From Streptomyces caeruleatus (lineage in GTDB: Bacteria; Actinomycetota; Actinomycetes; Streptomycetales; Streptomycetaceae), in the NCBI RefSeq assembly GCF_001514235.1, contig NZ_KQ948925.1, positions 1-64,000 of the forward strand: a DNA stretch of 64,000 nt, written 5' to 3'. A program made the translations under genes and the position numbers. Position 1 is the stretch's first letter, and each line of letters starts with the position of its first letter. The notes under the pieces were generated by a model. The model did no database searches. It had not been told where the DNA came from and worked only from the letters and a program-made list of their open reading frames with translations. Shown here piece after piece: positions 56,837 through 58,995 of the stretch.

Positions 56837-57723
56837 ATGCTGAGGCTCCTGGGGCACCGTCTGCTCTGGTCGCTCCCCATGGTCTTCGTGGCCACCGCGC
56901 TGTCGTTCGTGCTCACCGCTCTGGTACCCGGCGACGCCGCCCAGTCGATACTCGGCTTCAAGGCCACGCCGGAGCAGCTCGGCGCCATGAGGGCACGACC
57001 TCGGCCTGGACAAGTCGTTGGTCGAGCAGTACGGCAGCTGGCTGGGGCACGCGGTCCAGGGTGATCTCGGGAGCTCCCTCTTCTCCGGAGAGAGTGTCAC
57101 CACGCAGCTCAACCAGCACCTGGAGATCACCTTCTCGTTGCTGCTCCTGGGCACGCTCGCGAGCACGGTCCTCGGCCTGGCGCTCGGCATCACCGCGGCG
57201 GTGCGCGGTGGAGTCGTCCGCAGCGTCGTCGACGTGCTGTCCCTGGCGGGGATGGCCATCCCCAACTTCTGGCTGGCGATGGTCCTGACGTCCGTCTTCG
57301 CGGTAGGACTGCGGTGGCTGCCGGTCGTGGGGTACGTCAGTTTCACGGAGTCGCCGCTGGACTGGGCACGCTCGCTGGTGCTGCCGGTGGCCGCCCTCGC
57401 GGTCGGATCGGCCACGATCATCGCCAAGCAGACGCGCGATTCCCTGGGGCAGGTCCTCGACCAGGACTTCGTCAAGACGCTCCGTGCCAACGGATTCGGA
57501 CCGCGGTCGGTCCTCTTCCGTCACGCGCTGCGCAACGCGGGCGTACCGATCATGAGCGTCATCGGCATCGTGTTCGTCAGTCTGATCGGCGGTTCCATCT
57601 TCGTCGAGCAGATCTTCGCGATGCCCGGCCTCGGGTCCATCACCCAGCAGTCGACGGCATCCCACGACCTGCCGGTGATCCAGGGAGCGGTCGTGTACTT
57701 CACCTTGCTCGTCGTCGCGGTGA
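56837..57723 (+). pseudogene. Dipeptide/oligopeptide ABC permease (DppB type), frameshifted and truncated
   Basis: The sequence reads as a DppB/OppB-like permease from ATG 56837 (GGAGGG box): LLGHRLLWSLPMVFVATALSFVL, then TPEQLGAMR. An extra G in the GGG at 56991-56993 breaks the frame; removing it restores RHDLGLDKSLVEQYGSWLGH. The second frame continues through the EAA-type region (GQVLDQDFVKTLRANGFGP) and AMPGLGSITQQ. It is cut after VVYFTLLVVAV near 57715, just short of the normal C-terminus. No binding-protein, DppC or ATPase genes follow. Two independent lesions make it non-functional. Confidence 0.85.
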
Positions 57724-57885
57724 AGATCGCAAGGGCCGACGGGGGGTGTTCGTCCACCGCGTCGAGAGTGCCGGAGACGAGGAAGGAGCCTTCCTCGAAG
57801 CGGGGAAAGAGCCAGCCCCGGTGGGCTTGCATGAGCTCGTCGGAAGGGTCTGCGCGGTGTACTCCACGAGCAGGGCGAAGAGCAT
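57722..57885 (-). pseudogene. YciI-like (YCII) protein remnant
   Basis: The minus strand begins MLFALLVEYTA at ATG 57885, then a one-base loss shifts frame to DELMQAHRGWLFPRFEEGSF and LDAVDEHPPSALAIF. This is the YCII fold's normal order. It ends abruptly at the junction with the permease remnant near 57722. Intact homologues are about 90-100 aa. The frameshift and missing C-terminus make it dead. It lies 25 bp after the phenolic acid decarboxylase gene on the same strand. Confidence 0.68.
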
Positions 57886-57910
57886 GTCGACTCCTGGGTC
57901 GCTGGGCAGG

Positions 57911-58447
57911 TCAGTTGGTGCGGGTGGACCAGTCGGCGGGGAGGTCACCCGGGGCGACGGAGATGACGGATTCGTCGTCGGCACCGGCGTACTCGAGGAA
58001 GGTGATCCTCGCGAACTCAGGGACCACGTAGATCGGGTAGGTCGGGCCCTTGTCACGGTACGCGCGCATCTCGTCGAGGTGCTCGTTCTGGAAGCAGACA
58101 GTGCGCTCGCCGTGCTCCTCGACCCAGTGCGGGAAGAAGATCACGCCGTGCAGGCGGCGCTTGCCTGGCATGACGTTGACCACGACGGAGGTGCCGGTGG
58201 GCTCGTTCCAGGAGATCTTGAAGCTGTCTTCGTCGAGTTGGACCAGGTCGACCTGCTGACCCTTGACCCAGCGGCCGCCGACCATGCCGGAGTGGATCCG
58301 GTAGTCGATGGTGCGGGCGTTCTTCACGTACATCTCGTACTGCCAGCCGTTGGCGTAGGTGTAGATGAAGCGGTGACCGACGATGCCGGACAGGTCCTGC
58401 GGGGGTACGGGGTTGGCGACGGTGGTGTCGTGGACCGCGCTGTTCAT
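57911..58447 (-). CDS. padC: Phenolic acid decarboxylase (PadC family)
   Basis: A 178-aa cytoplasmic enzyme that decarboxylates p-coumaric, ferulic or caffeic acid to the 4-vinylphenol, without cofactor. The sequence follows the PAD lipocalin-like barrel throughout. [17 protein letters not shown] carries the two active-site Tyr, [15 protein letters not shown] the substrate-binding Arg, and SWNEPTGT the catalytic Glu. [19 protein letters not shown] and [14 protein letters not shown] are also conserved. It is slightly longer than Bacillus PadC because of an N-terminal tail of about 15 residues. ATG 58447 has AGGAGAG. It is divergent from a MarR gene across three repeated operator-like sites. 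Confidence 0.93.
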
Positions 58448-58483
58448 GTTGGTCTCTCCTTGCGTGCACTCAGGCGATTTCCC

Positions 58484-58526
58484 TTTGCTGCAAAACTCGT
58501 TTGCCACAAAACTACTTTGCATCAAA
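58484..58526. promoter_or_regulatory. Three operator-like sites TTTGCnnCAAA at 16-bp spacing
   Basis: TTTGCTGCAAA (58484-58494, a perfect palindrome), TTTGCCACAAA (58500-58510) and TTTGCATCAAA (58516-58526) start exactly 16 bp apart. They fill the region between padC and the marR start. This fits binding of a MarR dimer array that represses padC until a phenolic acid is present. The DNA here is distinctly AT-rich for the window. Confidence 0.75.
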
Positions 58527-58542
58527 TGTGATTGCGGGCACA

Positions 58543-58995
58543 ATGGCCCTCATGGACACCGCGACCGAGTTCGGCCGGCTTCTCGGCCCCCTGCGCCGGG
58601 CTGTACTGCGCACCCGCCGCGCCGAAGGCCTGCCCGACCTCCCCGAGGCCCAGATCGAGTTGCTGCGCGCCCTCACCGAGACCGGCACCGCGACCCCGCG
58701 CCAGGTCGCGGTACGACTACGGGTCGCGCCGTCCACCGTCAGCAACCTGGTCCGGACGATGACCGCGGCCGGCCTGGTGGTGCGCACCCCGTCCGCCACC
58801 GACCTGCGCACCGTCCACCTCGCACCGTCACCCGAGGCCCTGGACATGCTCGACCGTTACGACCGCACCAGCACCGCCGCCCTGCGCCGCGCGCTGGACG
58901 ACCTCGCCCCACAGAGTCGCGAGGCACTGGAGCGGGCACTGCCGGTACTCGCCGAGTTGCTCACCGCCCTGGAGGCGGAGGGTCCCGAGGACTGA
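58543..58995 (+). CDS. MarR-family regulator, probable repressor of padC
   Basis: About 150 aa with the MarR winged [30 protein letters not shown], then [21 protein letters not shown] and the wing [17 protein letters not shown] 58543 (or 58552) is preferred; TTG 58501 in the same frame lies in the repeated operator and is rejected. It is divergent from padC, with three 16-bp-spaced sites between, so phenolic-acid-responsive control is likely. In many bacteria PadR plays this role; here a MarR protein seems to have it. The stop lies within a 13-bp tandem duplication. Confidence 0.9.

Follow-up and report, generated by a model that had tools for sequence, protein, structure and literature searches.

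A conserved pair of palindromes at 16-bp spacing, with one lineage-specific addition, as the putative operator of a MarR-family regulator divergent from padC in Streptomyces caeruleatus

Results

The stretch of DNA that we analysed (hereafter the window) comprises 64,000 nucleotides of contig NZ_KQ948925.1 of Streptomyces caeruleatus and harbours on its minus strand padC (57911..58447), encoding a phenolic acid decarboxylase of 178 residues. PadC matches PF05870 with an E-value of 2.3e-80 and covers profile positions 1-157 of 158, i.e. the domain is present at full length. The PadC proteins of close relatives are 72-89% identical to it, and a Shine-Dalgarno-like AAGGAGAG lies upstream of the padC ATG (58447). 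Divergently from padC, the plus strand encodes a MarR-family regulator (marR, 58552..58995) whose start is likelier at 58552 than at 58543, so that the true intergenic region spans 58448-58551.

Sequence profiles, the model fold and the structural neighbours all place the regulator in the MarR family. Two MarR profiles match it above their curated cut-offs (PF12802, MarR_2, E 2.6e-12; PF01047, MarR, E 1.2e-9), the AlphaFold model (pLDDT 92.5) has the order H-H-H-H-E-E-H-H of a winged helix with terminal dimer helices, and the best Foldseek matches are MarR-family proteins, those in the PDB including YusO, Rv0880, Rv0042c, E. coli MarR and PcaV. It scored below the cut-offs of the named NCBIfam equivalogs HpaR (28.4 vs 121.2 bits), Rv0880 (51.8 vs 220 bits) and FabT (28.6 vs 200 bits). 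A PadR-family regulator beside padC was not found either: no PadR model matched the adjacent regulator at E 0.001, whereas MarR models did. Among 24 MarR orthologs (43-92% identity) residues A59, T62, S64 and N65 of the recognition helix are invariant, as expected because the operator site described below is equally conserved.

On the far side of padC, the frame of an ABC-transporter permease (57018-57911) matches its family only as far as about 57720, beyond which it runs antisense into padC. Between the end of the permease match and padC, the minus strand has two frames (MLFALLVEYTAQ... as well as ...DELMQAHRGWLFPRFEEGSFLVSGTLDAV...) which gave no Pfam match and appear by eye to be fragments of a single disrupted small gene, YCII-like in character. 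A recombination junction just downstream of padC is probable.

Three 11-mers lie between the two genes: site 1 on the padC side (58484..58494, TTTGCTGCAAA), site 2 (58500..58510, TTTGCCACAAA) and site 3 on the marR side (58516..58526, TTTGCATCAAA). All three share the form of an odd palindrome, TTTG-N3-CAAA, with site 1 an exact TTTGNNNCAAA, and they are separated by two steps of exactly 16 bp each. The sequences, the coordinates and the exact period thus agree with those of the initial annotation, from which this analysis started. We rejected a chance origin of the array on the evidence of shuffles, the whole-genome count and searches of genus and class samples. Within the window TTTGNNNCAAA has three matches, all of them in the array, compared to 0.02 expected upon dinucleotide shuffling (0 of 100 shuffles reached three); the whole 10.29-Mb genome contains seven such places, three of which are again those of the array, and no second pair with 16-bp spacing is found elsewhere in these 10.29 Mb. 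Among 393 genomes sampled from the genus, the exact pair occurs in 13 (the window's included), adjoined by a marR ortholog in 13/13 and by padC in 12/13. In a class sample of 395 genomes no genome other than the window's own carries it, and a reversed control pattern had zero matches in both the 393-genome genus search and the 395-genome class search.

We then turned to padC loci of relatives, gathered from 395 genomes within the family and from a species-representative genome collection (the best 80 of 185), and scored the padC-marR intergenic stretches for TTTGNNNCAAA-N5-TTTGNNNCAAA, with a maximum of 16 bases. Somewhat more than half of the collected padC loci have a marR ortholog divergent from padC. 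The 50 distinct regions with such an ortholog (the window included) comprise 29 that score 16/16, 10 that score 15 and three that score 13; hence a pair with at least 14/16 bases at exactly 16 bp is present in 39/50 distinct regions between padC and marR, versus 1/39 padC loci that have no such marR (p ~1e-15). At a threshold of 13/16 the pair is found in 42/50 regions with a marR ortholog versus 1/39 padC loci without one (Fisher p = 7e-16), and when sites with at most one mismatch are considered, the step between neighbours is always either 16 bp (40 cases) or 17 bp (two cases). The sequences thus show that the sites exist, how they are spaced, that they are conserved and that they go together with marR; in their strict co-occurrence with it and their constant spacing they behave as an operator of the adjacent MarR. 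The conserved unit of this putative operator is the pair that matches 58500 and 58516. The earlier placement of an operator between padC and marR is borne out to the extent that the motif co-occurs with the marR ortholog and that the 16-bp spacing is conserved.

Individual loci depart from the common arrangement in several ways. One locus (L102, 1035-2683) has a marR ortholog and the pair, with a gene that by eye resembles the von Willebrand type replacing padC. Another (L003) has an intact padC (87% identical), a mere remnant of marR and no operator pair, and thus resembles a natural knock-out. In L023 the padC-marR intergenic region has shrunk to approximately 20 bp, such that operator and marR start are missing; the body of this marR is 68% identical. 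L079 is the exception to the association of motif and marR, as it has padC and the pair (15/16) with a lipase-like gene in place of marR; it is the sole region scoring above 11 among the 39 distinct ones without a marR ortholog. Finally, L013 and L017 carry padC in two frames (residues 2-114 and 118-178), owing to a frameshift or a sequencing error, with marR and pair intact.

Site 1 has a different history from the pair. When the pair is aligned from the marR start, sites 2 and 3 align with the pair of the relatives as its padC-proximal and marR-proximal halves, respectively; in the scoring script the window is anchored on its padC-side pair, and its third site is therefore counted there on the marR side. 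At the padC-side offset of site 1 no relative has 6/8 bases or more, and we reject the triple as a conserved state, since no other locus examined has a complete further site at an offset of +16 or -16. The best third-site score elsewhere is 6/8 in L025, on the marR side, where its promoter region lies. The nearest relative (L002; PadC 89%, MarR 91% identical) has the pair only and reads TCGCGACCACT at the position of site 1. The initial annotation had presented a phased triple and had suggested looking for it upstream of padC orthologs: the 16-bp spacing is indeed kept in relatives, but the conserved number is two, and the third site is known only from this genome. On this comparative evidence the array is best described as an ancestral pair to which this lineage has added one site. 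The site 1 unit and the site 2 unit are identical at 12/16 positions and both have a CAAAACT flank. Compared with L002, the window shows no increase in the distance from padC to marR, which makes a simple 16-bp insertion unlikely as the origin of site 1; without added length, it probably arose via base changes or replacement.

We also asked how the sites are placed relative to the promoters. A probable -10 box of marR (CACAAT, plus strand, 58539..58544) ends 7 nt before the ATG at 58552, and a -10-like hexamer (CACAAT, CAGAAT, CATACT or similar) is found 6-7 nt before the marR start in 36/39 loci, compared to 0-2 of the 39 for any other spacing between 2 and 15 nt. This position predicts a leaderless marR mRNA, and the marR transcript is probably leaderless. 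A likely -35 box of marR (TTTGCA, 58516-58521) falls within site 3, at a spacer of 17 nt to CACAAT; in relatives the corresponding spacer mostly measures 15-19 nt, although a few loci exceed this. Towards padC, a -10-like hexamer (usually CAAAAT) made up of the outer half-site plus the next two bases occurs in 33/39 loci versus 10/39 at the mirror position, and in five loci (L010, L072, L073, L080 and L093) such a padC hexamer stands 6-7 nt before the likely padC ATG. Since the boxes of both genes overlap the operator, the operator is predicted to cover both promoters. In the window (58498-58526) the padC -10 of the relatives is destroyed, reading CAAACG at site 2 and CAAAGG at site 1, and padC must therefore use something else there. 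A weak candidate, in which we have low confidence, is CAAAGT on the minus strand (58514..58519) with TTGTGC as -35 (58543-58538); a local promoter scan found no sigma-70 consensus.

Discussion

On the basis of these findings, we consider it likely that the divergently encoded MarR uses the array as its operator, binding with one dimer per site, repressing padC as well as marR and leaving the DNA upon binding of an inducer. Each TTTG-N3-CAAA would be a palindromic binding site for one dimer. A 16-bp step corresponds to ~1.5 helical turns and rotates neighbouring sites by ~189 degrees, whereas sites 1 and 3 are ~3 turns apart and offset by ~17 degrees. The geometry behind the previously suggested alternation of DNA faces is therefore sound, although the actual placement of dimers on it is our extrapolation. 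The ancestral operator would accordingly hold two dimers on opposite faces, ~1.5 turns apart, and between them these would mask the marR -35 box, upstream of the predicted leaderless transcript, as well as the -35/-10 region of padC. Without inducer, two (ancestral) or three (window) dimers may repress both genes through promoter occlusion; binding of an inducer, presumably aromatic, would cause MarR to leave the DNA and allow PadC to be made. Because the target is padC, the inducer is probably a phenolic acid or a relative of one, but the ligand class may differ, given that the comparable regulator CouR responds to p-coumaroyl-CoA. The third site, in the same register on the padC side, would bring a further 16 bp of the padC promoter or leader under MarR cover, and repression should become tighter, for padC to a greater extent than for marR. 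By analogy with PecS of Vibrio vulnificus, cooperative binding of MarR at the array is plausible; the sharp response to phenolic acids proposed in the initial annotation, and any sharpening through the third site, are hypotheses. We entertain only tentatively, and regard as rather doubtful, the further idea that the 16-bp register lets MarR dimers polymerise on alternating faces, in which case site number (one in Williamsia, two in most, three here) would be an evolvable dial for the steepness of padC control that this genome has turned up by one unit.

Several alternatives bear on how many of these sites matter and on what binds them. The most serious holds that the conserved pair alone (58500 and 58516) is functional and that site 1, as a product of chance or a decaying by-product, has little effect. 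Two sites suffice in nearly all relatives, the nearest of which has a MarR that is 91% identical and lacks site 1, and site 1 emerged without any gain in intergenic length over that relative; known from one genome only, it could be a neutral accident. Against this stand its 8/8 consensus bases, its exact 16-bp register and the flank that it shares with site 2, along with a probability of ~7e-7 for a match at a given offset, as calculated from the observed genome density, and we judge an operator made of the pair alone to be somewhat unlikely. Chance aside, the unit that is recognised could differ from the one we propose. An inner palindrome, CAAA-N5-TTTG, lies within the pair, whose whole 27 bp are perfectly palindromic in some relatives, and since the pair is also one long palindrome, another stoichiometry such as one tetramer is conceivable. 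The sites might then be half-sites of a single operator, recognised either through the inner CAAAA-N3-TTTTG or by one MarR tetramer on the 27-bp palindrome, as would fit the perfect or near-perfect palindromes of 27-29 bp in several relatives (L013, L018 and L032) and the AT-rich, nearly symmetric central N5. Yet both TTTG-N3-CAAA units are intact in L072 at a step of 17 bp, three Williamsia loci (L073, L076 and L093) and one of Curtobacterium (L081) retain a lone intact TTTGNNNCAAA whose partner is decayed or lost, and the third full unit of the window fits repeated units better than one closed palindrome. Owing to the L072 step, the single-unit loci and the whole unit added in the window, we favour TTTG-N3-CAAA as the unit bound by one dimer; the inner palindrome is an unlikely recognition unit given the L072 spacing and the single-unit loci, and the half-site reading in general appears improbable to us.

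Least probable is a reading in which marR is a bystander and the sites serve a different regulator with padC among its targets. Binding of MarR to the sites is a prediction from sequence, and in L079 padC has the pair without an adjoining marR, the one exception of this kind. However, the motif tracks the marR ortholog rather than padC, as 38/39 padC loci without marR also have no motif, the marR of L102 retains the motif without padC and the decayed marR of L003 is without it, which renders a foreign regulator very improbable. With MarR as the preferred occupant of the sites, the comparison resolves its operator base by base, and the comparative support for it is strong; this actinobacterial MarR, a regulator of phenolic acid decarboxylase, is widespread but has apparently not been described before. 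The natural one-, two- and three-site variants provide a ready test set for relating operator number and spacing to the MarR response, and the operator is a candidate biosensor part for lignin-derived hydroxycinnamates.

Neither this regulator nor its operator at base resolution nor the third site seems to have been described so far: in the openly searchable literature we found no paper for the motif TTTGNNNCAAA or for a MarR with TTTGCCACAAA, and no title or abstract describing a system of MarR with padC in Streptomyces. In Bacillus, Lactobacillus and Pediococcus, PadR is the repressor of the phenolic acid decarboxylase gene. PadR is of a different family, whereas the regulator of the window matches MarR models.

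The closest arrangement to the padC-marR array is the SCO3204-SCO3205 region of Streptomyces coelicolor with its two operator sites (PMC3737563). Like the system described here, SCO3205 is a streptomycete MarR with a divergent target gene, a short intergenic region, TT/AA palindromes and predicted autorepression. Its sites form distinct peaks that do not overlap, one upstream of each of the two genes, whereas the padC-marR sites abut at an exact 16-bp period; unlike that system, the window has a third site and padC as the target. CouR of Rhodococcus jostii RHA1 is likewise an actinobacterial MarR repressor, of hydroxycinnamate genes, whose box overlaps divergent -35 boxes and which responds to p-coumaroyl-CoA, not p-coumarate (PMC4737184). 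The CouR site is a single inverted repeat (cATTGA-N5-TCAATg), in contrast to the repeated TTTG-N3-CAAA of the window. PecS of Vibrio vulnificus, also of the MarR family, likewise places several dimers in a single divergent intergenic region, with predicted binding to opposite faces: at least three dimers bind with positive cooperativity (Hill 2.7); the PecS palindromes are 57 bp apart (PMC6391409), compared to 16 bp for the padC-marR sites. According to a review, MarR proteins that require two sites occupy opposite or adjacent faces, and the paired dimers of the QacR type (TetR family; opposite faces, palindrome of ~28 bp) are similar in arrangement only (PMC6018408). The premise of the initial annotation that MarR dimers usually use single palindromes was thus too strong, as SCO3205, PecS and the review all document multi-site binding. 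Seen against these systems, the kind of regulation is one already known, and the array looks like an ordinary repressor switch with a well-conserved architecture and one extra site.
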